The translations under genes were made by a program, and so were the position numbers. The notes under the pieces were generated by a model. The model saw nothing but the letters and a program-made list of their open reading frames with translations. It had not been told where the DNA came from and made no database searches. Positions 1,819-38,071 of a stretch of DNA of 64,000 nt are shown one piece after another. Numbering within the stretch: position 1 is the stretch's first letter; each line of letters begins with the position of its first letter. Source of the stretch: Caenimonas koreensis DSM 17982 (lineage in GTDB: Bacteria > Pseudomonadota > Gammaproteobacteria > Burkholderiales > Burkholderiaceae_C). Location: positions 62,001-126,000 of the forward strand of contig NZ_WJBU01000005.1 in NCBI RefSeq assembly GCF_009646335.1, read 5' to 3'.

Positions 1819-2616
1819 CTATCGTGACGCGCGAATCATGTGGATGGCTTGCGGCAGTGAGTTCGCGGCAGGGATGAAGTAGTCAATTGCGCCGCCAAGT
1901 AGCACCGCGCACGCTACCGCGCCCAGCAGCGGTTTCCACGTCAGCCGCACCACCGCCGACAACCAACCCTCACGAACCACTCGCATGGCAGTCCGCGCAG
2001 ACACGTAGCTGAACGCGATTTCGACCGCCGCCGTCAGAAGCGCCTCCCAGCCGAAGTAGAGCATCAACAATGAGCCTGCTCCAAAGATGAGGGCCAAGCC
2101 AATGAGGAAGACCGCGACGACCGGAACCACCACAACGGCGCCCTCCTCTGACCCGGCTGCGATTTCCACGGCGCCCTGAGCCACGCCGCCCACAAAATCA
2201 CCGCCGCCCGCCGAGAAATCTCCCGTGGCGCCACCCCCGGCGAAGTCACCTCCTCCACCCGCGTGCATGCCGGGCAGGTCGACCGCACTGAGATCAGGGC
2301 CGGACGGCGAGTGGCTGATCCCTGGTCCATCGAGTCCTGAGATGTCGAGGCTGCTTCGATCCACCAGTGCTCCAGCCCACCACCGAAGTACCAGCAAATA
2401 GAACAAATATCCAATGCCAAGCGTCAAGAGATAGCGCAGCGCGAGCGAATGCAGGCCCGCCATCATCTGCAGATGCGCCGCACCCCACATCAGCCCCAAC
2501 ACGGCAAGGCCAATGAGCCAGCCATACATCCACAGAGGGTGTCTTGCGCGAAGGTGTTGCTCGATGCCGCGCTCCCACAATCGGACCGAGCGCCAGTCCG
2601 ACACTTGGGATTTCAT
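1819..2616 (-). CDS. Hypothetical membrane protein with Gly-rich middle, coupled to alr
   Basis: I do not recognise this 265-residue protein. The N-terminal third has two hydrophobic segments (about residues 30-50 and 60-80). It is followed by an acidic and Gly-rich linker (about 95-155, with [10 protein letters not shown]-type runs), then two or three more hydrophobic segments and a basic tail. The ATG at 2616 overlaps the alr stop in an ATGA arrangement, which favours this start over an upstream in-frame ATG at 2655 that would lie inside alr. Translational coupling suggests co-expression with alanine racemase, but no enzymatic motif is visible. The Gly-rich linker could be flexible or extracytoplasmic. 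Confidence 0.7.
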
Positions 2617-3710
2617 GCCATTGCAGCAAACGGCACCCGTGGTGCCACGGCACACATCAACTCATAACCCACGGTGCCGGCTGCGCGCGCGACTTCGTCA
2701 ATGGCCAGCAGTGCGCCGTTCGACGCGCGCCCCCACAGCGTGACTTCAGAGCCGATGTGCGCATGCGGCATGTCCGTGATGTCCACCGTGAGCATGTCCA
2801 TGCTCACACGGCCGACGAGCCGCGTGCGAACGCCATCCACAAGAATCGGCGTGCCCGTCGAGCAGTGACGCGGATACCCATCCGCGTAGCCGCACGCCAC
2901 GATGCCGATGCGCAGCGGCACATCGGCCTTGAAGCTGGAGCCATAGCCCACCGTGTCGCCGGGTTGCAATTGCTGCACGCCAATGATGCGTGACGCGAGC
3001 GTCATCACCGGCTGCAGGCCCCAGTGCGCGATGTCGTGATCCGGAAAGTCCGGCGCGCTGCCGTACACGGCGATGCCAGGGCGGATCCAGTCGCCGCGCA
3101 CCACGGCGTCCTGGCCAAAGCGCAAGCTCGCGGCGCTGTTGGCCAGCGAGCGCTCGCCCGGCAGGTCATGGGTGATGTCCTCAAACACCTTCACCTGGTG
3201 CGCAATGCCACGCGCGCCGTCGGCATCGCTGAAGTGCGTCATCAATGAAATCTCATCGACTTGCGGCAACGCATCGAGCCGCGTCCATGCGGCGCGATAG
3301 CGTTGCGGCGCGAAGCCCAGGCGGTTCATGCCTGAGTTCATTTTCAGGAACACGCGATGTGGCTGCTGCGTCTTGTGCGTAGCGAGCATGTCGATCTGCT
3401 CATTGCAATGCACCGCGTGCCACAGGTTCAGGCGCGAGCACAGCTCCAGGTCGCGCGCTTCGAACACGCCTTCGAGCAGCAGGATGGGCCCGCGCCAGCC
3501 GAGTGCGCGCACGCGTTGCGCTTCAGCCAGGTCGAGCAGTGCGAACCCATCAGCTGCGCGCAATGATTCATACACGCGCTCGATGCCATGCCCGTAGGCG
3601 TTCGCCTTGACCACGCCCCAGACCTTCGCGTCAGGCGCTGCAAGCCGCACGCGCGCAAGGTTATTGGTGATGGCTTGTGGATCAATCGTGGCCAGGATAG
3701 GACGGGGCAT
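2613..3710 (-). CDS. alr: Alanine racemase
   Basis: PLP enzyme that interconverts L- and D-alanine for peptidoglycan synthesis. The 365-residue length is normal. The PLP-binding lysine is K35 in [10 protein letters not shown]. The catalytic tyrosine lies in CGYADGYPR in the C-terminal beta domain, and [12 protein letters not shown] is also conserved. The gene diverges from lplT, with about 100 bp between them holding both promoters, and its stop overlaps the start of a membrane-protein gene. The catabolic dadA gene is far away (47.7 kb), so this is more likely the biosynthetic racemase than the dadAX-linked one, although that is not proven. Confidence 0.96.
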
Positions 3711-3813
3711 TGCGGGATTCTGTCATTACCCCGCGTGATATAAACCTTTGATCCGTTGGAGACAGCCTCAAAAACACCGCCCATCAGTGCTACTGATGCG
3801 GCCACGCATGCAC

Positions 3814-5097
3814 ATGAAGCGCGGTTTCTACACCCTGATGTCGGCCCAGTTCTTTTCGTCGCTGGCCGACCAGGCGCTTTTCGTTGCCGCGGTCGAATTG
3901 ATCAAGGGCAATGGCGGCGCCGAATGGCAGCGCGCCGCGTTGGTGCCGATCTTCGCGTTGTTTTACGTGGTGCTCGCGCCATGGCTGGGTGCGTTCGCCG
4001 ATGCCTACCCCAAGCGCGTGGTCATGTTTGCCAGCAACGCGATCAAGGTGGCGGGCTGCCTGCTCATGCTGTTCGGCCTGCACCCGCTCGCCGCCTATGC
4101 CGTGGTCGGCTTGGGCGCTGCTGCGTACTCGCCCGCCAAGTACGGCATCCTCACTGAAATGCTGCCGTCGTCGCAGCTCGTGAAGGCCAATGGCTGGATC
4201 GAAGGCCTGACGATCGCGTCGATCATCCTGGGCATTTTGTTGGGCGGGCAACTGGTGGGACACATGTTGTCGAGCCGCATGCTGGCGTTCGACTTCCCCT
4301 TCATCGAGACCAGCGTCGACACAGCGCCTGAAGCGGCGATCTCGGTGCTGATCTTCATTTATGCACTGGCCGCGTGGTTCAACACGCGCATCCCGTTGAC
4401 GGGCGTCGAGATGCGGCCCATCCCGAAGAACCCGCTGGAGCTCGTGCCCGATTTCTGGATGTGCAACTCACGCCTGTGGCGCGACAAGCTCGGCCAGATC
4501 TCGCTGGCCACCACCACGCTCTTCTGGGGCGTGAGCGGCAACCTGCGCTACATCATCCTGGCATGGAGCGCGGCAGCGCTGGGCTACAGCACCACGCAGG
4601 CGTCGTCGCTTGGCGGCGTGGTGGCCATCGGCACTGCTGTCGGCGCGGTGATTGCGTCGATGCGGATGCGGCTGGATTCAGCCACCAAAGTGATTCCGAT
4701 GGGCATCCTGATGGGCGTGCTGATCATCGTGATGGTCTTCATCAACAACGTATGGGTGGCGGTGCCCTTCCTGATCCTGATGGGCGGCCTGGGCGGCTTC
4801 CTGGTCGTGCCGATGAACGCATTGCTGCAGCACCGCGGCCACAACCTGATGGGCGCCGGCCGCTCAATCGCCGTGCAGAACTTCAACGAGCAAGCGTGCA
4901 TCCTGGGCCTGGGCGCTTTCTACAGCCTCTCCACGGGCTTTGGCCTGTCGGCGTTCGGCGCGATCTTCGCGTTCGGCGCGCTGGTGGCCGGCGTGATGGC
5001 GCTCATCAGGCACTGGCACCTGTACAACCTGAAAAACCACCCCGAAGAAGTCGAGCACCTGATGAAGGTGGCGCGCCACGACACCCCGCATGGTTGA
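3814..5097 (+). CDS. lplT: Lysophospholipid transporter LplT (MFS)
   Basis: MFS protein of about 427 residues that flips lysophospholipids across the inner membrane for re-acylation. The opening FYTLMSAQFFSSLADQALF is characteristic of LplT, as is the long row of about twelve membrane segments with LGAFADAYPKRVVMF after helix 2. I place the start at ATG 3814 because family members begin with MKRGFYTL; in-frame ATGs at 3796 and 3808 and a longer extension to 3748 are possible. The usual acyltransferase partner (Aas) is not adjacent. The last eight bases overlap the start of the following EamA gene. Confidence 0.9.
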   Translation: MKRGFYTLMSAQFFSSLADQALFVAAVELIKGNGGAEWQRAALVPIFALFYVVLAPWLGAFADAYPKRVVMFASNAIKVAGCLLMLFGLHPLAAYAVVGLGAAAYSPAKYGILTEMLPSSQLVKANGWIEGLTIASIILGILLGGQLVGHMLSSRMLAFDFPFIETSVDTAPEAAISVLIFIYALAAWFNTRIPLTGVEMRPIPKNPLELVPDFWMCNSRLWRDKLGQISLATTTLFWGVSGNLRYIILAWSAAALGYSTTQASSLGGVVAIGTAVGAVIASMRMRLDSATKVIPMGILMGVLIIVMVFINNVWVAVPFLILMGGLGGFLVVPMNALLQHRGHNLMGAGRSIAVQNFNEQACILGLGAFYSLSTGFGLSAFGAIFAFGALVAGVMALIRHWHLYNLKNHPEEVEHLMKVARHDTPHG

Positions 5098-28707: not shown

Positions 28708-31062
28708 TTACTGCACGAAGCCCATGCCCCGCGACTCACGCACCTCGGGCTTGATGCGATGCTCCGCTTCAAGCTGCTCGATGAATTCTTCCGCCGTGAA
28801 TGTCGCGCTGAGGATGTCGACCTGCCGCTTCACGGCGGCGAAGTCGCCGGGACAGAGCTGGTCGAGTCGCGCCAGCCGCGCGATGACCGCTGGCGTCAAC
28901 GACGCCTGGTCACCGTCTAACGCCTCGGTCACGAACATCCGTTCGCGCTGCTGCTGCGTAAGCGGCTTGAACCGGATCTTGAACGTGAAACGGCGCAGCG
29001 CCGCCTGGTCGATGCGGTCCAGCAAGTTGGTGGTGCAGACAAAGATGCCGTTGAAGCGCTCCATGCCCTGCAGCATCTCGTTGACCTCAGTGACCTCATA
29101 AGTGCGTTGCGCCCCGCGACGGTCCTGCAAGAAGCTGTCTGCCTCATCGAGCAGCAACACGGCCTTTTCGTTTTCGGCCTCACGAAACATCGCAGCCATG
29201 TTCTGCTCGGTCTCGCCGACGAACTTGCTCATCAGGTCGCTGGCCTGCTTGATCAGCAGCGGCTTGTCGAGCGCTTTGGCAATGTGTTCGGCCAGCGCCG
29301 TCTTGCCCGTGCCCGGTGCGCCGTAAAAGCACAGCGTGCCGTGCCCGCCCGCGCGCAAGGCCTGCACGATGCGCGGGATTTCGAAACGCGTCTCCACGTT
29401 CAGCATGTCCAGGTCGTAGTGCGTCACGCTGCGCCGCGCGCCCGCCTCGTTCGCGCGATTGCCAAGCGCCTGGTCCGAGTTGCGAAGCTGGCGGTCAATC
29501 AGGGTTTCGATGGCGGCGGGCTCGTCGCTGGCGAGCGCGGCGAAGCGCACCGCCGTGCGGATCTGCGCGGGCGTCAGGCCCTTGCGGCTCGTCAGTTTGC
29601 CGACGAACTCGTCGGACACGGGTACGCCTTCGAGCGTCTTGCGAACAATGCCTTCTCGCGCGCCCGGCGGCGGCGATTTCAGCTCAAGGTGATAAGCGAA
29701 GCGGCGGCGAAACGCCGGGTCGATCTGCTCAATTCGGTTCGTGACCCAGATGGTGGGCACTGCGTTGGTTTCGAGAATCTGGTTCACCCACGCCTTGCCG
29801 CTGACGCTGCCCGTCGGCGGCGCCACCACCTGGTCGGCGCGCGCCATCAGCTGCGCGGCTTCGCTGGAGATGGGCGGGAATACGTCTTCCACTTCGTCGA
29901 ACAGCAGCGCCGCCTGCGCGCTGCCTTTGAGGAACACCTGCGCGATCTGCAAAGACCGGTAGCGGTCCCTGCCGGAGAGCGAATTGCCATCGCGATCGGC
30001 ATATTCGACCTCGAACAACTCGAGGTTCGCCGCCTGCGCCACCACCTTGGCCAGCTCGGTCTTGCCGGTGCCGGGCGGGCCGTACAGCAGCACGTTCACA
30101 CCGGGTTCCTTGCGACTCACGGCATTGCGCAGCAGCGAACACAGCACCGCTGCGTCTTCCTGCACAAAGCTGAAGTCGCCCAGGTCGAGCGAGCTTTTGG
30201 CGCTTGGCCGTGTGAACACGGCCATCAGCTCGTTCTGGTCGCGGTACTCGCGCATTAACACAGGCGGCAGCTTTTCGCTGACCTTCATCAGGTCAGCCAG
30301 GTCGGTGATGTTGTGTTCAGAGATCAGGTTTTCGACCAGGCCGATCCGCTCCAGGCGCGAGCCGGCGCGAAGGGCTTCGCCCACTTCGGTGGCGCTCACT
30401 CCGGCGAGTTCGGCAATCGCGGCATACGCTTCGGGTGCGTTGTTGACCTTGAATTCGACGAGGATGGAGCGCAGGTCGCGTTGATAGCGTGCCAGGGTGC
30501 CGTAGAGCAGCAGTGCCCGTTCGGCCTTGTTCAACTGCAACAGGCCCGACAGCGCGTCGATGTTCTTTTCAACCAGCGTCGATTGCTTCTTCAGGGCGTT
30601 AGTCAGCCAGTCGCCGGTGACGGCCAGCACAGACAGCAGGTCCTTCGGCTGGTCCTTCGCGTATTCGTCCAGATAGAAGAACAGCGTGCCCTCTTCATAG
30701 GGGCCGCGCCACACGCCGTGGCGATCGAGAAATTCCTGTGTGCTGAGCGCTTCATGGTTGCGCCAGAACTCGTTGTCTTTGCAACGGCGGCCAAGAAATT
30801 CGCGAAGGCGTGCGAGTGCGGGTGCGGGCCAGACGAGGTGGCGGCCGGCCAGTGACAGCAGGCCATTGAGGTCGCGCCGCACGTTGAACTTGCCGCCCTG
30901 TTTGGCCGCAAGCGTCAGCACAAAGTGCGAGCACATGAGGTCGAGCACCGGCGCATTTTTCAGCCCCGGTGAGGGTAGGACCTGCACATCCGCCGAACGC
31001 TTGACCACTTTGGAAAGCCTCCAGCACCGCATGGCGCCAAATTGAAGATAACGCGACTTCAT
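28708..31062 (-). CDS. Large tandem AAA ATPase
   Basis: About 784 residues. A helical N-terminal region of roughly 310 residues has no recognisable motif. Two AAA modules follow: the first with Walker A YGPPGTGKTELAKVVAQ and Walker B LLFDEVEDVFPP, the second with Walker A YGAPGTGKTALAEHIAK, Walker B VLLLDEADSFLQDR and an arginine-containing ALRRFTFKIRF. Two stacked AAA rings suggest a CDC48-like remodelling ATPase, but the N domain differs and the client is unknown. ATG 31062 is chosen, ATG 31032 is also possible; neither has a strong ribosome-binding site. It is divergent from ilvA. Confidence 0.8.
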   Translation of the reverse strand: MKSRYLQFGAMRCWRLSKVVKRSADVQVLPSPGLKNAPVLDLMCSHFVLTLAAKQGGKFNVRRDLNGLLSLAGRHLVWPAPALARLREFLGRRCKDNEFWRNHEALSTQEFLDRHGVWRGPYEEGTLFFYLDEYAKDQPKDLLSVLAVTGDWLTNALKKQSTLVEKNIDALSGLLQLNKAERALLLYGTLARYQRDLRSILVEFKVNNAPEAYAAIAELAGVSATEVGEALRAGSRLERIGLVENLISEHNITDLADLMKVSEKLPPVLMREYRDQNELMAVFTRPSAKSSLDLGDFSFVQEDAAVLCSLLRNAVSRKEPGVNVLLYGPPGTGKTELAKVVAQAANLELFEVEYADRDGNSLSGRDRYRSLQIAQVFLKGSAQAALLFDEVEDVFPPISSEAAQLMARADQVVAPPTGSVSGKAWVNQILETNAVPTIWVTNRIEQIDPAFRRRFAYHLELKSPPPGAREGIVRKTLEGVPVSDEFVGKLTSRKGLTPAQIRTAVRFAALASDEPAAIETLIDRQLRNSDQALGNRANEAGARRSVTHYDLDMLNVETRFEIPRIVQALRAGGHGTLCFYGAPGTGKTALAEHIAKALDKPLLIKQASDLMSKFVGETEQNMAAMFREAENEKAVLLLDEADSFLQDRRGAQRTYEVTEVNEMLQGMERFNGIFVCTTNLLDRIDQAALRRFTFKIRFKPLTQQQRERMFVTEALDGDQASLTPAVIARLARLDQLCPGDFAAVKRQVDILSATFTAEEFIEQLEAEHRIKPEVRESRGMGFVQ

Positions 31063-31134
31063 GCTACATGGAAGACACTCATTGTGGGAATACCCACACA
31101 CCATTGGCTTTTTAGCCCTGACAATCCCGAGCAC

Positions 31135-32334
31135 ATGATCGACCTTGCCGACGTCCGCGCTGCAGCACACCGCCTTGAAGGCCAGCTGACCGACACGCCT
31201 TGCGTGGAGTCGCGCACGCTGTCGGGTATCACGGGCGCGCAGGTCTTCCTGAAGTTCGAGAACCTGCAGTTCACCGCATCATTCAAGGAACGGGGCGCGT
31301 ACAACAAGCTGTCGCAACTCTCCAATGAAGAGAAGGCGCGCGGCGTTGTCGCGATGAGTGCGGGCAATCATGCCCAGGGTGTGGCCTACCACGCGCAGCG
31401 GCTGGGCATGCGCGCAGTGATCGTGATGCCTCGCTTCACGCCAGGCGTGAAAGTGGAGCGCACACGCAGCTTCGCGGCGGAAGTCGTGCTGCACGGCAAC
31501 ACACTTGAAGAAGCGCGCACCCATGCTTATGAGCTGGCTGCGCAGCAGCACCTCACGTTTGTGCATCCGTATGACGACGAGCAGATCGTTGCGGGCCAGG
31601 GTACGGTGGGCATCGAAATGCTGCGCGCCGCGCCCGAACTGGACACGCTCGTCATCGCCGTGGGGGGTGGCGGCCTGATCGCGGGCATCGCTGTCGCGGC
31701 GAAGGCGCTCAAGCCCGGAATTGAAATCGTGGGCGTGCAGACGCTGCGCTTTCCGAACATGTTCAACGCCGTGAAGCACGAGTCGCTCCCACAGGGCACC
31801 AGCACGATTGCCGAGGGCATCGCGGTCGGCACGCCAGGCCGCATCACGCAGGAAATCATCGAGAAACTCGTTGATGATCTGGTGCTGGTGGACGAAGGCG
31901 ACATCGAGCAGTCGATCGTGATGCTGCTGGAAATCGAGAAGACGCTGGTCGAAGGCGCCGGCGCAGCCGGGCTGGCGGCCCTGCTCAAATACCCCGAGCG
32001 CTTCAAGGGCCGCAAGGTCGGCCTGGTGCTGGGCGGCGGCAACATCGACCCGTTGCTGCTTGCTGCGATCCTGGAGCGCGGCATGGTTCGCGCCGGCCGG
32101 CTGGCACGCGTTCGGGTCAGCGCGCGCGATGTGCCGGGGTCGCTTGCGCGCATCACCGCCATCGTGAGCGAGGCAGGCGCGAATATCGACGAAGTGCATC
32201 ACCAGCGCGCATTCACCATGCTTGCTGCGCAGAACGTTGAAATTGAACTCGTGGTGCAGACACGCGGGCGCGACCACATCAGGGCCGTGATCGACGCGCT
32301 GCACGAAGGCGGCTTCCAGGCGGAGGAACAATGA
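31135..32334 (+). CDS. ilvA: Threonine ammonia-lyase (medium form, one ACT domain)
   Basis: 399 residues. The fold-type II PLP domain has the PLP lysine in FTASFKERGAYNKL, the Gly loop VGGGGLIAGIA, and SAGNHAQGVAYHA. It is followed by a single C-terminal ACT domain (about 325-399, VSARDVPGSLARITAIV). It deaminates threonine (or serine) to 2-oxobutyrate. It is the shorter form with one ACT domain rather than the 510-residue biosynthetic IlvA, so a catabolic role is possible. ATG 31135 lies 37 bp after an inverted repeat TGTGGG-N4-CCCACA (31083-31098) that may be an operator. Its stop overlaps the following thioesterase gene. Confidence 0.92.
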   Translation: MIDLADVRAAAHRLEGQLTDTPCVESRTLSGITGAQVFLKFENLQFTASFKERGAYNKLSQLSNEEKARGVVAMSAGNHAQGVAYHAQRLGMRAVIVMPRFTPGVKVERTRSFAAEVVLHGNTLEEARTHAYELAAQQHLTFVHPYDDEQIVAGQGTVGIEMLRAAPELDTLVIAVGGGGLIAGIAVAAKALKPGIEIVGVQTLRFPNMFNAVKHESLPQGTSTIAEGIAVGTPGRITQEIIEKLVDDLVLVDEGDIEQSIVMLLEIEKTLVEGAGAAGLAALLKYPERFKGRKVGLVLGGGNIDPLLLAAILERGMVRAGRLARVRVSARDVPGSLARITAIVSEAGANIDEVHHQRAFTMLAAQNVEIELVVQTRGRDHIRAVIDALHEGGFQAEEQ

Positions 32335-32738
32335 TGGACAAGGCAGTTTTGCAGTCAGCGCTCGGCGAATACTTTGCGCCGTGGGTTCAGGCGCTCGCGC
32401 TGCAGGTCGAATCGTTCGATGCCGACAGCGTGACACTGCGGCTGCCGCAAAGCGACTCGCTCTCGCGCGTGGGCGGCATGCTGTGCGGGCAAGCCATGAT
32501 GGCTGCGGCAGACACAGCGATGGTCCTGGCGCTCATCAACCAGTTCGGCGAGTTTCGCCCCTGCACCACCGTGCAGATGAGCACCTCGTTCCTCAAGCCG
32601 CTGTCCAAGCAGGATGCGCTGATTCAGGCGCGTGTGGTGCGCGCCGGCAAGACGCTGGCCTTTGGCGAGATCGATTTGCGAGGCGCCGATGACGGCAAAA
32701 GCGCCAGCCGCGCCAGCGTGACGTACGCCCTGCTCTGA
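32331..32738 (+). CDS. PaaI-like hotdog thioesterase
   Basis: 135 residues forming a single hotdog domain. RVGGMLCGQAMMAAADTAMVLALINQFG is the central helix with the usual catalytic-region Gly, followed by TVQMSTSFLKPL. Such enzymes hydrolyse acyl-CoA thioesters; substrate unknown. GGAGG just before the ATG pair at 32331/32334 supports the start, which overlaps the ilvA TGA, indicating translational coupling. Confidence 0.88.
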   Translation: MMDKAVLQSALGEYFAPWVQALALQVESFDADSVTLRLPQSDSLSRVGGMLCGQAMMAAADTAMVLALINQFGEFRPCTTVQMSTSFLKPLSKQDALIQARVVRAGKTLAFGEIDLRGADDGKSASRASVTYALL

Positions 32739-32784
32739 CGACCCGCTAAAATCACGCGTAGTCCCCCGATTTCAGGAAACCACC

Positions 32785-32934
32785 ATGTCCACGCCGCAAA
32801 CCCAGACCGATGCCAGCCAGAAGCACACCCAGGATCCCCTGGAGGCCATCATGCCGATGGTGCCGATCGTGCTGCCGGTTGTTGGCGGCGTGCTGATTTT
32901 CCTGCTGGCATTCATCGCCATTTCCATGGCCTGA
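32785..32934 (+). CDS. Small single-pass membrane protein
   Basis: A 49-residue frame with AGGAA seven bases before its ATG. A polar N-terminal half (MSTPQTQTDASQKHTQDPLE) leads into one hydrophobic helix (VGGVLIFLLAFIAISMA) at the C terminus. Codon use is like the host genes, and a good terminator follows, so it looks like a genuine gene. Function unknown. It marks the left flank of the IS1595 insertion. Confidence 0.65.
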   Translation: MSTPQTQTDASQKHTQDPLEAIMPMVPIVLPVVGGVLIFLLAFIAISMA

Positions 32935-32957
32935 AGCAGCCCTGCGCTGATCTAGCC

Positions 32958-32985
32958 AAAGGCCCCTGTTGGGGCCTTTTGTTTG
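32958..32985 (+). terminator. Rho-independent terminator after the small membrane-protein gene
   Basis: AAAGGCCCC-TGTT-GGGGCCTTT, a 9-bp stem with 4-nt loop, followed by TTGTTTG. It lies 24 bp downstream of the 49-residue gene and separates it from the insertion element. Confidence 0.85.
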
Positions 32986-33014
32986 TCTGCGCCGGCTTGT
33001 CGCAGCGGGGGAAC

Positions 33015-33040
33015 TTCACCCGCCAAAGTATGTACTTGAC
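33015..33040 (+). repeat. Target duplication copy and left inverted repeat of the IS1595 element
   Basis: TTCACCCG at 33015-33022 is the left copy of the target duplication, and the inverted end spans 33023-33040. A second AGTATGTAC (33053-33061) repeats part of the end 26 bp further in and overlaps the -10 region, which could let a transposase bound at the end influence its own promoter. Confidence 0.85.
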
Positions 33041-33064
33041 ATCCCCGACTTTAGTATGTACCAT
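33036..33064 (+). promoter_or_regulatory. Promoter inside the left end of the IS
   Basis: TTGACA (33036-33041), a 17-bp spacer and TACCAT (33059-33064) form a plausible sigma-70 promoter reading inward to the transposase. The -35 hexamer is part of the inverted end, so the mirror-image right end carries TTGACG facing inward on the minus strand as well. Confidence 0.65.
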
Positions 33065-33089
33065 GCAGTCATTCTCGGAGATTTCCCCA

Positions 33090-34046
33090 ATGACAGCCAT
33101 CTTCAACCAGCCGCAATTTCAAGACGCAGACAAGGCCCGCGAGTACCTGGAGGCTCAGGTCTGGCCGAATGGTCGTATTTGCCCTCATTGCGGCGTTGTG
33201 GGTGAGCATTACGTCTTGAAGGGCAAGTCCAACCGTCCCGGCCTGTACAAGTGCGCTGACTGCCGCGAACCCTTCACCGTGACCGTGGGCACTGTGTTCG
33301 AGCGCTCCAAGATCGGCCTGCATGTCTGGCTGCAAGCCGTCCACCTGATGTCCGCTTCCAAGAAAGGCGTTTCAGCAAAGCAGCTTGAACGCATGCTTGG
33401 CGTGACCTACAAGACCGCGTGGTTCATGTGCCATCGCATCCGCGAAGCCATGACCGCTGCACCGTCCAAGATGCTCGGCGGTCCCGGCTCATCCGGCATC
33501 GTTGAAGCCGACGAAACTTATTGGGGCCGTGCCGCTGACGAGGAAGGCATTCGCTACCCCAAGGGCATCAAGCGCGGCGCTGCAAACAAGATGAAGATCG
33601 TGACGCTGGTCGAGCGTGATGGTGACAAGCGCTCTTTCCACGTCGCCAACGTCAACGCTCAAACGCTTGCTCCAATCCTTAAGGCACAAGTCGCTAAGAC
33701 CGCTCGCCTGATGACCGATGAAGCCAGCTATTACAAGAAACCCGGCGCGCACTTCGCATCGCACCAATCAGTGAACCACTCGAAAGAGGAATACGCTCGC
33801 GGCGACGTGACCAGCAATACTGCTGAATCCTCTTTCGCCATCCTCAAGCGCGGTCTTGTCGGCACCTTCCACAGCGTTAGCGAGCAACACCTGCAACGCT
33901 ATTGCAATGAGTTCGACTTCCGCTGGAACTATCGCCAGTCGCAAGGTTTTAGCGATACGGCCCGCGCAAACATGGCGCTCATCGGCATCACTGGCAAGCG
34001 CCTGACCTATCGGCGGACTCACGCGCCAGTCTTCGCGTTTCAGTAA
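33090..34046 (+). CDS. IS1595-family transposase
   Basis: 318 residues. The N-terminal zinc ribbon has two cysteine pairs (CPHC about residues 32-35, CADC about 55-58), followed by a helical region and an ISXO2-like catalytic domain. Acidic residues are D141 in EADETYWG and D210 in LMTDEASYY, with the third-site motif SNTAESSFAILKRG (N243/E246). The length is normal and the frame is intact, so the enzyme may be active. ATG 33090 has CGGAGA nine bases before it; an ATG at 33063 would lie in the promoter. Confidence 0.93.
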   Translation: MTAIFNQPQFQDADKAREYLEAQVWPNGRICPHCGVVGEHYVLKGKSNRPGLYKCADCREPFTVTVGTVFERSKIGLHVWLQAVHLMSASKKGVSAKQLERMLGVTYKTAWFMCHRIREAMTAAPSKMLGGPGSSGIVEADETYWGRAADEEGIRYPKGIKRGAANKMKIVTLVERDGDKRSFHVANVNAQTLAPILKAQVAKTARLMTDEASYYKKPGAHFASHQSVNHSKEEYARGDVTSNTAESSFAILKRGLVGTFHSVSEQHLQRYCNEFDFRWNYRQSQGFSDTARANMALIGITGKRLTYRRTHAPVFAFQ

Positions 34047-34251
34047 TCAGCCTGTAACGCCGCGAGCCACGAAGCTCAAGGCCGTCGCGGACTCGATTCG
34101 CTTCCGATCTGGCTACACCGGCTCAGATCACTGCCCGCAGTGTTGGACTCTGCATGGCGCTTTGCGCCCGCTGCGCTTTGAGCCTCATCACAATGGGGTA
34201 GGCGCGTTCCTAGCAGCCTGTGTAAATTGCGGGTTCCACATCACTTTGTGA
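34006..34251 (+). pseudogene. Zinc-ribbon reading frame lacking a normal start codon
   Basis: After the transposase, in the +1 frame relative to it, an 81-codon frame with no ATG, GTG or TTG before its cysteine motifs ends with a two-knuckle zinc ribbon, SDHCPQCWTLHG and ACVNCGFHITL, at the TGA 34249-34251. That stop is 11 bp before the next passenger ATG, as in a normal operon. It may be a decayed gene, a frame reached by +1 shifting from the transposase, or one with a rare start such as ATT 34096. Confidence 0.4.
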
Positions 34252-34262
34252 AGGGGCTTGTG

Positions 34263-34568
34263 ATGGCAACGAATATTCCTCCCATGCCTTCGAACGTGCG
34301 CTCCATCGCGCTTGCGTGGCTGAGAAAGGACGAATGGCCGCGATGGTTGGAACTAGACCCGCAGTTCCAGCCCGACTACGAGCATTGGCTGCGCCGAATG
34401 AATGAAGCGGTGGCCGAGTTGCAGCGTCGCGGAAACAAGGTCAACAAGATCGATGTAGGCATTGACGAATTCCTCGAATGGAGCCGCGTCAACGGAGGAA
34501 AGGTCGATACCCACACACGGTCTGCATTCGTCGCCTACAAGGGGATGCGAAAGGAAACCGACCACTGA
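34263..34568 (+). CDS. IS passenger: hypothetical protein
   Basis: 101 residues, not recognised. It is helical and charged, with Trp-rich WLRKDEWPRWLELDPQFQPDYEHWLRRMNEAVAEL and a basic C terminus; no catalytic motif or membrane segment is visible. ATG 34263 follows AAGGGG at a good distance. It lies inside the IS1595 element on the transposase strand. Confidence 0.65.
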   Translation: MATNIPPMPSNVRSIALAWLRKDEWPRWLELDPQFQPDYEHWLRRMNEAVAELQRRGNKVNKIDVGIDEFLEWSRVNGGKVDTHTRSAFVAYKGMRKETDH

Positions 34569-34620
34569 TGCTGTACGCTGAACTGACATTGTGTGAGCGC
34601 TCGTGAAATTGGAGTTCTGC

Positions 34621-34998
34621 ATGGACGAACTAGCCATCACAGCGGCAGAAATTGACGGTGGCAAGATCACTGACGATGGCATGGCGCTGGTTCTGAAAGT
34701 AATTCAGGTCAGCGGCTTTGAAGTGAACTTGGCGTTCCCTCATCTTGCGCTGCCCGCCTTGATAGAAGCGGCAGCACACGGAATCACAGAAGGATTTGCT
34801 AAGCAAGGGAAGCCGGATCAGCGCTATCCAGTCCAATGGGTCAACTGGAATCTCGATCCAATTTCAACAGGCTCTTTGCTGACAATGACTCTTCAAAGTG
34901 GCGGGCAATTGGCCTTTGTGCTGCCGCCGCAGGTTCAAAGCGAATTGCTTCAGGCTATTGCCAATCAGATCGGAGCCACGGTTTTAATGAAGTCTTAG
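34621..34998 (+). CDS. IS passenger: hypothetical protein
   Basis: 125 residues, acidic and probably beta-rich (TGSLLTMTLQSGGQLAFVLPPQVQSELLQAI); not recognised. ATG 34621 has GGAG six bases before it, better than the in-frame GTG at 34603. Its TAG stop overlaps the stop of a small frame on the opposite strand. It is located inside the IS1595 element. Confidence 0.65.
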   Translation: MDELAITAAEIDGGKITDDGMALVLKVIQVSGFEVNLAFPHLALPALIEAAAHGITEGFAKQGKPDQRYPVQWVNWNLDPISTGSLLTMTLQSGGQLAFVLPPQVQSELLQAIANQIGATVLMKS

Positions 34999-35147
34999 CC
35001 GCCGCGTCCACGGCTGTTATTAGGCTCCGGCGGCTTCGCAGGCTTCGGCTTGACCTTCGGCATGGGAGGCGCGGACCATACACGCTTCAATGCCTCGTTG
35101 AAGGGCATTGCGGGGACTTCTTCGCTCTTCGCCTTATCGTGTTTCAT
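34995..35147 (-). CDS. IS passenger: possible 50-residue basic protein on minus strand
   Basis: A complete frame running against the other passengers: MKHDKAKSEEVPAMPFNEAL, then KRVWSAPPMPKVKPKPAKPP and a short Arg/Gly tail. The pattern FNEALKRVW followed by a Pro/Lys-rich tail looks like small conserved phage or mobile-element proteins. It fills the gap between two plus-strand passengers, its stop overlapping the stop at 34998. No strong ribosome-binding site is visible (GAGTG only). Confidence 0.45.
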   Translation of the reverse strand: MKHDKAKSEEVPAMPFNEALKRVWSAPPMPKVKPKPAKPPEPNNSRGRGG

Positions 35148-35167
35148 TTCATCACTCGCGAGGTCCT

Positions 35168-35836
35168 ATGAAGAACAAGAAGGATATCAACGACCGCACC
35201 TTTACGTTTGCTCATTCGGGGCTCAGAGACACACATCCTGAGGTGATTGAGCTAATGATTGCCTTCGCTGAAGCCAGTTGGACCTGGACGCACACCGAAA
35301 GCTGCTTGTTTCGACTCTTCGCTCATGTGGTTGAGCCCAAAACCAATTTACATACGAAGGCGCTTCGCGCTGCATTCTTCTCTGTGATCAGTCCGTTAGG
35401 CCGACTGGACATGATCAACGCTGTGATCGCCGCGAACTTCGACAAGGAGTTCATCAAGCACTGGAACAAAATCTATCTGGAATACCGCGCTCAGATTGCG
35501 ACAAGGGGCCGCTTGGCCCATCTTTGCGGCTTTTCATATTCGCCCAAGAACGGAAAACCGCGAGCCATCTTGATGGAGCCTCGCGTTCATCCAAGAGCGA
35601 AGCACACGCACGGAGAGGCAAACGCAGTCGAATACACCGCCAGCTATCTAAACCGCTTGACCCACAAATGGGGAAAGCTGGCCGCGAAAGTCAGCATCTT
35701 CATCCTGCTTGTCGATGAGACAGACATGCTTTCAGAATACGCTCAACAAGTAGCGAGTCTGCTGGTGATGGAGGACGATCCAAGTAGCCCGATTCCTCCA
35801 AAACCAACACACCAGCCGACAGCATCTCAGGCGTAA
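35168..35836 (+). CDS. IS passenger: possible HEPN-like protein
   Basis: 222 residues, largely alpha-helical. The first two thirds (TESCLFRLFAHVV ... AAFFSVISPLGRLDMINAVI ... NKIYLEYRAQIATRGRLAHLCGF) follow the layout of a loosely conserved family of helical proteins found near defence and mobile genes. RGRLAH at about residue 133-138 fits the R-x4-6-H motif of HEPN ribonucleases. The C-terminal 30 residues are Pro/Ser-rich. The assignment is tentative; no partner toxin or antitoxin is identified. ATG 35168 follows GAGG. The last 137 bp overlap a minus-strand frame. Confidence 0.55.
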   Translation: MKNKKDINDRTFTFAHSGLRDTHPEVIELMIAFAEASWTWTHTESCLFRLFAHVVEPKTNLHTKALRAAFFSVISPLGRLDMINAVIAANFDKEFIKHWNKIYLEYRAQIATRGRLAHLCGFSYSPKNGKPRAILMEPRVHPRAKHTHGEANAVEYTASYLNRLTHKWGKLAAKVSIFILLVDETDMLSEYAQQVASLLVMEDDPSSPIPPKPTHQPTASQA

Positions 35837-35906
35837 TCGCAAAATCTCCCGCTACATTTTCTGTAGCAGGAGATTCAACCGGCCTGTCGCTTTCGACTGT
35901 AGTCAT
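35700..35906 (-). CDS. IS passenger: possible 68-residue protein on minus strand
   Basis: An open frame entering from the right end of the element. FAITPEMLSAGVLVLEESG followed by a helical segment LLVERILKACLSHRQ resembles small conserved proteins of mobile DNA that carry ITPEM-AG motifs. ATG 35906 is taken; ATG 35930 lies inside the inverted repeat. The right end contains an inward TTGACG-N17-TACAGT that could drive it, although the -10 falls just after the ATG, which argues for a start further in. It overlaps the 222-residue gene antisense, so one of the two may be non-coding over 35700-35836. Confidence 0.4.
   Translation of the reverse strand: MTTVESDRPVESPATENVAGDFAITPEMLSAGVLVLEESGYLDRPPSPADSLLVERILKACLSHRQAG
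35843..35875. other. Inverted repeat near the right end of the IS
   Basis: AATCTCCCGCTACA and TGTAGCAGGAGATT form a 14-bp stem with one C-A mismatch and a 5-nt TTTTC loop. It lies just after the stop of the 222-residue passenger. There is no long U run on the plus strand, while the minus strand reads into UUUUGCG, so it might act as a weak terminator or stop read-through out of the element. Confidence 0.5.
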
Positions 35907-35919
35907 TTCGTTTGGTAAC

Positions 35920-35945
35920 GTCAAGTACATAATTCGCTTCACCCG
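35920..35945 (-). repeat. Right inverted repeat of the IS1595 element and target duplication copy
   Basis: 35920-35937 is the right inverted end and TTCACCCG at 35938-35945 is the right copy of the target duplication. Beyond it about 250 bp of host sequence leads to pckG without a recognisable gene. Confidence 0.85.
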
Positions 35946-36196
35946 GCGCATAACCCCATGCAAGTTTTGCATTGTTTTCACCCCGAGTTCCGCTTGTCCG
36001 GGGTAGCTCGTCCCTAAAATTGGTGACCCAGCCGACCCGCGGACAGTGAAACATCCTTCACGACCCCAGCGTTGCCAAAGCGCGCAACCCCCGCCCGCCG
36101 ACTGCGCCAAGCCTGATTTCAAAAAGGCCAGCGCTCGTGCCCCGTCGTGAGCTCCTGCCTTCCTGAAATACGGTTTTTTGACTTAGGAGCTTTTGG

Positions 36197-38071
36197 ATGA
36201 ACTCTCCCGCCATGAAGGGGCTGAACCTCAGCGCCCCCGCCTACGTAAAGAACGCGAAACTCATCGCGTGGGTCGCCGACATGGCCGCCCTGTGCAAGCC
36301 AGACGCCATCTATTGGTGCGACGGCAGCCAGGAAGAATACGACCGGCTTTGCCAGCGACTGGTCGATGGCGGGACCTTCAAGAAGCTCGACCCAGTCAAG
36401 CGCCCCAACTCATTCCTCGCCTGCTCGGACCCGACTGACGTGGCACGCGTCGAAGACCGCACTTTCATCTGCAGCGCCAAGCGTGAAGATGCCGGCCCCA
36501 CAAACAACTGGATGGAACCGGCCGAGATGCGCCAGACCCTTCAGCCCCTATTTGACGGCTGCATGAAGGGCCGCACGATGTATGTCGTGCCGTTCTCGAT
36601 GGGGCCGCTGGGCTCGCCGATTGCGCATGTCGGCATCGAACTCTCCGACAGCCCCTATGTGGCCGTGAACATGCGCATCATGACGCGCATGGGCAAAGCC
36701 GTTTACGACGTGCTCGGCGTCAACGGCGACTTCGTTCCCTGCGTGCACACCGTCGGCGCGCCGCTGGCCGCCGGCCAGCAGGACGTGAGCTGGCCCTGCA
36801 ACAAGACGAAGTACATCGTCCACTACCCCGAGACGCGCGAGATCTGGTCTTATGGCTCCGGCTACGGCGGCAATGCGCTGCTGGGCAAGAAATGCTTTGC
36901 GCTGCGCATCGCCTCCACGATGGGCCGCGCTGCGGCAGGCGGCCCCGCCGGCAGCCCGGGCTGGCTGGCTGAGCACATGCTGATCCTCGGCGTGACCAAT
37001 CCGCAGGGCAAGAAGTACCACGTCGCTGCTGCGTTCCCCTCAGCCTGCGGCAAGACCAATTTCGCGATGCTGATTCCGCCGGCTGGCTTCGACGGCTGGA
37101 AGGTCACCACGATCGGCGATGACATCGCCTGGATCAAGCCCGCTGCCGATGGCCGCCTGTACGCCATCAACCCGGAAGCCGGCTACTTCGGCGTCGCGCC
37201 CGGCACGAACACGCTCACAAACCCGAACTGCATGGCCAGCCTCACGAGCGACGTGATCTTCACCAACGTCGCGCTGACGGACGATGGCGATGTCTGGTGG
37301 GAAGGCATGGGCCCTGCGCCCGCGCACGCCATCGACTGGCAAGGCAAGGACTGGACGCCCGAGATCGCCAAGGAAACCGGCGCAAAGGCCGCGCATCCGA
37401 ACGCGCGCTTCACCGTCGCTGCCATCAACAACCCGGCACTCGACTCCGCCTGGGACGACCCGGCCGGCGTGCCGATCGACGCATTCATCTTCGGCGGCCG
37501 CCGCTCGACGACCGTGCCGCTCGTGACCGAAGCACGCAACTGGGTCGAGGGCGTTTACATGGCCGCGACGATGGGCTCCGAAACCACCGCCGCGATGGCT
37601 GGCGGCAACGGTGCCGTGCGGCGCGACCCGTTCGCAATGCTGCCTTTCACGGGCTACAACATGTCCGACTACTTCCAGCACTGGCTGGACCTGGGCCGCA
37701 AGCTGGCTGCCACCGGCGCCAAACTGCCGCGCATCTACACCACCAACTGGTTCCGCAAGGGTGAAGACGGCAAGTTTGTCTGGCCCGGTTATGGCGAGAA
37801 CATGCGTGTGCTCAAGTGGATGATCGACCGCATCGAAGGCACGGCCCAGGGCAAGGAGCACGTGTTCGGCGTGAGCCCGGCGTATGAAGAGCTGAACTGG
37901 ACGGGCCTGAATTTCAGCGCCGACCAGTTCAACACCGTGACCAGCATCGAGAAGGCAGCGTGGCAACAGGAACTGAAGTTGCACACCGAGCTGTTCCAGC
38001 AGCTGGAATATCACTTGCCCAAGGAACTCGGCGAGACAAAGGCGCAAATCGAAAAGCGGTTGGCTGCCTGA
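36197..38071 (+). CDS. pckG: Phosphoenolpyruvate carboxykinase (GTP)
   Basis: 624 residues, the GTP-dependent form that converts oxaloacetate to PEP for gluconeogenesis. [12 protein letters not shown] is the kinase P-loop with the reactive Cys, [22 protein letters not shown] the substrate/metal region, and [25 protein letters not shown] the guanine site. TAGGAG lies eight bases before the ATG. The 250-bp leader between the IS right end (35945) and the gene contains no gene I can identify; insertion of the IS there may have altered its promoter. Confidence 0.97.

Follow-up and report, generated by a model that had tools for sequence, protein, structure and literature searches.

A tiny conserved gene accompanies the transposase of an IS1595-family lineage with exchanged cargo, represented by an element in Caenimonas koreensis

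We analyzed a 64,000-nucleotide stretch of the genome of Caenimonas koreensis DSM 17982 (contig NZ_WJBU01000005.1, positions 62,001 to 126,000; hereafter, the window), in which positions 33023-35937 hold a 2,915-bp IS1595-family element with 1.9 kb of passenger DNA. This element appears to be a member of a mainly proteobacterial IS1595 lineage of small transposons that share a two-gene core, consisting of the transposase and a tiny gene, denoted here P4, and exchange the rest of their cargo, a reading to which we assign a probability of about 0.6. Comparative sequence analysis indicates that P4 is nearly universal among relatives with defined boundaries and is tied to this transposase, that the cargo is replaced between elements with near-identical transposases, and that P4 is often kept where the neighboring cargo differs. 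By the same kind of evidence, the cargo in the window includes a HEPN-type protein (P5) and a small open reading frame (ORF) at the right end that accompanies HEPN (P6). More tentatively, at odds slightly short of even, P4 would be the second core protein of a widespread IS1595 clade and would act in transposition, with new cargo, such as HEPN, PIN, MazF-like and restriction genes, repeatedly spliced in while the transposase, P4 and the ends stay constant.

The analysis confirmed that 33023-35937 is a complete, real IS1595-family element with exact ends, an intact transposase and passenger genes. A first-pass annotation made from the letters of the window had already proposed the family, the exact ends, the intact transposase and a passenger composition unlike that of the host, and all four statements held up. 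Perfectly matching copies of an 8-bp target-site duplication, TTCACCCG, lie at 33015-33022 and 35938-35945 (no strand applies to either), immediately outside imperfect 18-bp inverted repeats that agree at 15 of 18 positions, namely CCAAAGTATGTACTTGAC on the plus strand at 33023-33040 and GCGAATTATGTACTTGAC on the minus strand (the reverse complement of 35920-35937). When all identical 8-mer pairs more than 700 bp apart within 31001-38000 were compared, the TTCACCCG pair gave the best inverted repeat (15, with the runner-up at 13). The transposase, on the plus strand at 33090-34046, matches DDE_Tnp_IS1595 (PF12762; 127 bits against a cut-off of 27, E 8e-37) and the NCBIfam model transpos_IS1595 (NF033547; 204.9 bits against 75, E 1e-60), and has the N-terminal Zn-ribbon of the family (Zn_ribbon_IS1595, PF12760; 50.1 bits against 25.4). 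Its frame is also open from an ATG at 33063, and alignment with relatives makes the ATG at 33090 the likelier start. The 8-bp target duplication and the related terminal inverted repeats are likewise those of IS1595 elements. The G+C content is 0.538 in the cargo and 0.577 in the transposase, compared to 0.639 in the window, and a search of 32700-36300 against Rfam at gathering thresholds gave no match.

To place the element among its relatives, we examined 160 loci chosen by a transposase profile and by nearness to the window transposase, comprising the best 80 of at least 522 genome loci and the best 80 of 208 viral-contig loci. Ends were called by a rule that combined identical 8-mers with a match of at least 15/24 and permitted the right end to lie directly behind the transposase. 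By this rule, 97 of the 160 loci were bounded, with 8-bp duplications as in the window, and 63 had no ends; together with the window, L023 and L025, the bounded loci make up 100 distinct elements (L018 and L029 represent one element, as do L022 and L039, and L024 and L040; each of these was counted once). All 100 carry cargo, which extends over 986-4,929 bp beyond the point where the transposase match ends (median 1,574), and no bare insertion sequence was found among them, though an end right behind the transposase was allowed. In the 97 elements, the target-site duplications are A+T-rich (70% vs 38% in far flanks), 93% of these elements have a G+C content below that of their surroundings, and the transposase clade was seen in alpha-, beta- and gammaproteobacterial records.

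P4 is encoded on the minus strand at 34995-35147 and consists of 50 aa, FNEALKRVWSAPPMPK plus a Pro/Lys tail. The core common to its relatives reads [FR]-D-E-V-L-[KR]-R-M-L-x-T-P-P-K-P-H and is followed by a Pro/Lys-rich tail. The first profile of this form (DEVLKRMLxTPPKPH plus the Pro/Lys tail) detected P4 in 80 of the 100 elements, and with a longer form (QSKRFIETARELEADESGEAFERAFKKIVPPK) included, the gene was found in 96. This count, like those of 28 and 41 given below for P6 and HEPN, is not independent, since these 100 elements also served to build or iterate the respective profiles. Independent counts were obtained from held-out unbounded loci with at least 1 kb to the right of the transposase (41 of 49) and from other loci that include a second IS1595 of the host and four plasmid copies (six of eight). 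The association is also specific: 2 of 6,295 ORFs in 632 kb of flanking sequence match P4, compared with matches among the cargo ORFs of 82-90 elements (2,063 ORFs in 175 kb). One of the two flank matches (L099) adjoins a second transposase of the clade; at this locus (about 2600-4920), a second same-clade transposase with a P4, P6 and HEPN set lies directly left of the bounded element, nearly in tandem. Around the other flank match (L153, about 510-719), there is no second transposase in the stretch compared, and the locus begins nearby. Searching 399 genomes with the P4 profile yielded eight matches in seven genomes, seven of them within 1.5 kb of a transposase of this type; minus two matches that are rows of the profile, five of six lie near the transposase, and the eighth match, without a transposase, is weak (E 9e-4). 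The long-form profile gave two matches in 274 genomes, both beside the transposase, one of these being a row of the profile.

Within the P4 core, the codons for Leu, Arg, Pro and Thr vary synonymously (56 of the 80 sequences were readable by the motif pattern), so selection acts on the encoded protein; the idea of a DNA site in place of a protein was dropped on the same ground. No NCBIfam match was obtained for 45 P4 sequences, and the few tried against Pfam and PHROGs gave no match of note. We consider it very improbable that this is an ordinary IS1595 element that acquired unrelated host genes once, with P4 and P6 being chance ORFs. Short ORFs do arise by chance, and both candidates are antisense in their surroundings, P4 between the neighboring genes P3 and P5, and P6 to the end of P5. 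However, recurrence throughout the lineage, the flank control and the synonymous variation largely contradict such an origin, as does the presence of cargo in every bounded element.

The distribution of P4 does not follow that of HEPN. P4 is present in 58 of the 59 elements without HEPN and in 38 of the 41 with it (Fisher p 0.3), and its place varies: of the 96 elements that have it, 51 encode it on the minus strand, 9 directly behind the transposase, 12 close to the right end and 24 internally. This independence from HEPN and this variable placement suggest that P4 belongs to the element rather than to a particular cargo, and a HEPN-specific antitoxin was dropped as a candidate since P4 occurs independently of HEPN. 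In its broader form, the antitoxin explanation holds that P4 is the antitoxin, or a toxin-antitoxin or abortive-infection partner, of whichever RNase-like protein adjoins it, and that addiction maintains the element, as has been suggested for the Tn3 family. The largest neighboring ORF is indeed divergent from P4 in 34 of the 80 elements with strict P4, many of these neighbors being HEPN-type, and PIN, PemK/MazF-like and other toxin-like genes also adjoin P4; furthermore, toxin-antitoxin pairs, HEPN included, are found in the Tn3 transposition module (PMC7157771). Nevertheless, P4 is equally common with and without HEPN and changes place among elements, a single antitoxin suiting HEPN, PIN, PemK and restriction-modification cargo alike would be unusual, and P6 is the better candidate for a HEPN partner, so we regard this explanation as unlikely. 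Neither P4 nor P6 shares a one-strand operon with P5 as in type II toxin-antitoxin systems, P4 being divergent from P5 and P6 convergent with it.

Cargo exchange is most apparent between elements with similar transposases. Using 99 of the 100 transposases and defining a shared cargo ORF as one of at least 90 aa matching at E 1e-8 over 60% of its length, we identified 67 pairs with transposases more than 72% identical, of which 6 share a cargo ORF and 61 have none in common. Among these 61 pairs, HEPN-family genes are present in both elements in 22, in one only in 21 and in neither in 18; in the 22 pairs with HEPN in both (for example, L044/L048 and L072/L089), the genes are too unlike for E 1e-8 over 60%. 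L044 and L048, with transposases that are 96% identical, do not share a cargo ORF under this definition. When 13 near pairs were aligned as DNA, the transposase matched in all 13, the P4 stretch in 10 and the right end in 10, with most other cargo unmatched. The exception is L064/L069, with a long common cargo; in addition, the window and L029 have part of a Zn-ribbon frame in common, L023 and L039 share 125 bp that belong to neither P4 nor the transposase, and the window has nothing but the transposase in common with L030. On a transposase tree (FastTree, 99 rows; L085 was too short and was left out), the fewest changes that account for the distribution are 19 for HEPN, 21 for P6 and 3 for P4.

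The nature of the cargo bears on another explanation, namely that it is mainly anti-phage defense and that the lineage is a shuttle for defense genes in which addiction has no part. Pfam matches in the cargo comprise PIN, PemK, a sub-threshold CopG antitoxin, DUF433 plus PIN, methylases, restriction domains, P63C and DUF5343; the majority of the ORFs scanned are unmatched. In particular, the 63 non-HEPN partner ORFs include N6 methylases, a type I specificity domain, HSDR_N, Mrr, PIN and PemK, mostly in one ORF each. HEPN domains themselves are described as common in abortive infection, restriction-modification and CRISPR systems (PMC3710099). Against a defense shuttle, Pfam matches are scarce among the 63 partner ORFs, and PADLOC, which was run on the window alone, finds nothing among its six proteins; we consider this explanation doubtful, if less so than an antitoxin role for P4. 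On our reading of P4 as an element gene, P4 would serve the element itself, as a transposase partner, a target or host-factor adaptor, or a regulator, rather than any one cargo, and the cargo would pay for the upkeep of the element as a useful or addictive load, which here would be HEPN.

P5 (222 aa, plus strand, 35168-35836) starts 20 bp from P4, in divergent orientation. Profile, motif and structural model suggest that it is a HEPN-type helical protein with R113-x4-H118 (RGRLAH), probably an RNA-cutting one. Relatives of P5 are present in 41 of the 100 elements, and this family is the most frequent divergent neighbor of P4. On a profile of 31 family members from which it had been left out, P5 scores 41 bits; the highest score among 1,000 shuffles was 6.4. 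In an alignment of 35 sequences, the first M and the R-x4-H pair are the only invariant positions, the R and H partly by choice since the rows were picked for R[NDHG]xxxH; R113 and H118, which fit the R-x4-6-H motif of HEPN domains, occupy the same columns as in the other 34 of these motif-picked rows. The pattern R[NDH]xxxH occurs somewhere in 38 of the 41 profile matches vs 13 of 108 other ORFs of 150-300 aa, the profile having been trained on motif-picked rows, and, as a less circular sign, it is kept in 12 of 13 relatives of the family outside elements. The P5 model (pLDDT 80) is a helical bundle, and its ten best VIA rows include the sacsin HEPN domain (Z 7.1; 3.5 Å over 108 residues) and RnlA (Z 5.7; 3.5 Å over 99). 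For the model of a compact relative from L091 (pLDDT 90), seven HEPN-superfamily entries appear among 50 VIA rows: the AF_0298 HEPN protein (Z 8.0; 3.8 Å, 103 residues), sacsin (7.9; 3.5 Å, 101), four HepT entries (6.5-6.8) and Csm6 (6.5). P5 resembles the HEPN superfamily in its predicted all-helical bundle and its R-x4-H, and most of its relatives also have the N, D or H after R that is usual there.

P6 (minus strand, 35700-35930) is an ORF of up to 76 aa with the motif AITPEMLSAG that reads inward from the right end and whose true start is unsure. An ITPEMxxAG-type motif is present in 28 of the 100 elements, and 24 of the 28 ORFs start within 60 bp of the right end. P6 goes with HEPN, which is found in 25 of the 28 elements with P6 vs 16 of the 72 without it (p 7e-10), and its motif varies synonymously among the 27 of 28 sequences that fitted the motif pattern. 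Promoter-like sites point inward at both ends of the element. The left one, TTGACA, 17 bp and TACCAT at 33036-33064, has its -35 hexamer at 33036-33041, with the first five bases inside the left inverted repeat, and might drive the transposase; the right one, TTGACG, 17 bp and TACAGT at 35924-35896, might drive P6. TTGAC lies within the left 30 bp in 85 of the 100 elements and within the right 30 bp in 37, against a background of 2.5% of 30-bp stretches. When unleashed by a phage or by loss of the element, the HEPN protein would likely cleave RNA, and its control might fall to P6 or, less likely, to P4.

Apart from the picking of the HEPN alignment rows, several observations weigh against the account given here. 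P4 is absent by these profiles from 4 of the 100 bounded elements and from 8 of the 49 unbounded loci, its short and long forms were joined via an iterated profile whose hits rose abruptly from 27 to 58 and then to 88, and we infer its role from conservation and place alone. The two promoter-like sites counted in the element, vs 1.5 expected, are no more than chance would give. P6 overlaps the 3' end of P5, which makes it less secure than P4 as a putative gene, and 4 of the 28 P6 ORFs start more than 60 bp from the right end. Relatives of P5 also occur away from elements: a search of 250 genomes located 13 of them in 12 genomes besides its own, with no transposase or P4 within about 1.5 kb on each side. 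The HEPN family is therefore wider than the element, with which P4, in turn, was seen almost exclusively. P5 itself has G after R, where N, D or H is usual in HEPN domains (Anantharaman et al. 2013, PMC3710099), and because of this G its activity is less sure than that of its relatives. P5 lacks a curated HEPN match, and alone it has no match in Pfam, NCBIfam, PHROGs or PADLOC. Of the 35 aligned proteins, one matches MtlR (4e-4), which PMC3710099 places in the HEPN superfamily, and one RiboL-PSP HEPN (0.008), both weakly. The top VIA rows of the L091 model are non-HEPN proteins (a designed tetramer, Z 9.9, and She2p, 9.4), and helical bundles can reach Z 8 by chance, so that motif, profile and fold have to be weighed jointly. 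Foldseek searches with the P5 and L091 models found nothing below E 0.001 in the PDB or among viral models (best in the latter 1.8e-3), and the HEPN alignment matched only design constructs and an ice-binding protein among PDB sequences, at E 0.08 and worse. Close relatives of P5 are evidently rare, since searches with its sequence found nothing on plasmids, in viral contigs or in 250 family genomes besides its own.

To our knowledge, the transposase is regarded as the only gene that a DDE insertion sequence of this type requires. If our reading is true, P4 would constitute new transposition or element-control machinery that is tiny, near-universal and unmatched in the family libraries searched, and it would be of general interest if shown to act in transposition. 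The lineage also illustrates how rapidly cargo can be exchanged around a core that stays fixed, and it offers a clear rule for locating unexamined HEPN- and PIN-type proteins. The IS1595 family as such is reportedly, by its title, the subject of a 2009 paper by Siguier, Gagnevin and Chandler.

Passenger-bearing IS1595 elements are already known, and the apparently new part here is the tiny gene P4 together with the HEPN cargo. Two IS1595-type mobilizable elements with passengers are described from Gram-positive bacteria (PMC5704250), MTnSag1 and tISCpe8, the latter carrying lincomycin resistance by its title. They resemble the present element in the transposase family and in bearing extra genes on an IS1595-type element; they differ in being Gram-positive mobilizable elements, and in the text consulted we saw no mention of HEPN cargo or of a further small gene that is conserved. 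In Ralstonia and Xanthomonas, IS1595 copies are reported to be short, about 0.7-1.3 kb (PMC7371123, PMC11092175). A parallel in behavior is the Tn3 family, whose transposons repeatedly acquired toxin genes, PIN and HEPN among them, with 39 of 190 elements concerned (Lima-Mendez et al. 2020, PMC7157771). Both lineages repeatedly take up different toxin genes, but the Tn3 family has another transposase and type II toxin-antitoxin pairs next to the resolution site, whereas here the HEPN gene faces away from P4 and toward P6, and the gene that stays constant is not a known antitoxin. We found no paper on a second conserved gene or on HEPN cargo in IS1595 elements, which is weak evidence of absence given that mostly titles and abstracts were covered and subscription papers thinly.

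The first-pass annotation treated the passengers as one undescribed set that could not be named. That description was too narrow, as the passengers split into the lineage-wide P4, P5 with its frequent companion P6, and sporadic genes that are rare or unique. Its suggestion to look for the same passenger order elsewhere was followed, and the exact order was not seen outside the window in the material searched. The sporadic genes all lie on the plus strand. A Zn-ribbon open frame (HCPQC ... ACVNC; 34006-34251) has no ATG, GTG or TTG start and overlaps the end of the transposase; a single relative, 56% identical, occurs among the 100 elements, in L018. P2 (101 aa, 34263-34568) matches phrog_4753, a family of unknown function, at E 1.4e-10, and has no relative among the 100 elements. 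P3 (34621-34998) is 125 aa long from its ATG, with a GTG at 34603 also open, and has one relative, 45% identical, in the same-genus element represented by L018/L029. P3 lies upstream of P5 on the same strand, 169 bp away, and its relative also precedes a HEPN gene; P3 may be a candidate toxin-antitoxin partner of P5. Searches with P2 and P3 on plasmids found nothing, and none of the window passengers other than P5 matched an MNT family.

The insertion point is the gap before pckG, and the host genome holds a single full copy of the element. A second, diverged IS1595 on another contig of the host is marked by a 203-bp match at 67%. This copy (L021:988-1107) also has a long-form P4 frame, probably decayed since two TAG codons lie in the matched stretch.

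We searched 59 genomes for the empty site and compared 29 other same-genus pckG loci. In 21 of these, the two flanks are both present without notable sequence separating them, and in 7, the left flank gave no match in the stretch compared. The empty-site test proposed in the first-pass annotation therefore succeeded to the extent that same-genus relatives lack the element; the single TTCACCCG target was present in none of the seven aligned same-genus loci (one without a left-flank match), all of which are too diverged to demonstrate it. In one same-genus genome (L204, about 170-1400), the gap before pckG is longer by about 1.0 kb, which might reflect another insertion or a gap in the assembly. 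To the left of the element, the window encodes a 49-aa ORF (32785-32934) with a likely membrane helix; the end of this ORF is kept in most of the aligned same-genus loci. To the right, upstream of pckG, GCATAACCCCATGCAAGTTTTGCAT at 35948-35972 is largely kept in the seven aligned loci, and its two halves, ATGCAA/TTGCAT, are suggestive of an operator-like site; the element inserted only a few bases away from it.

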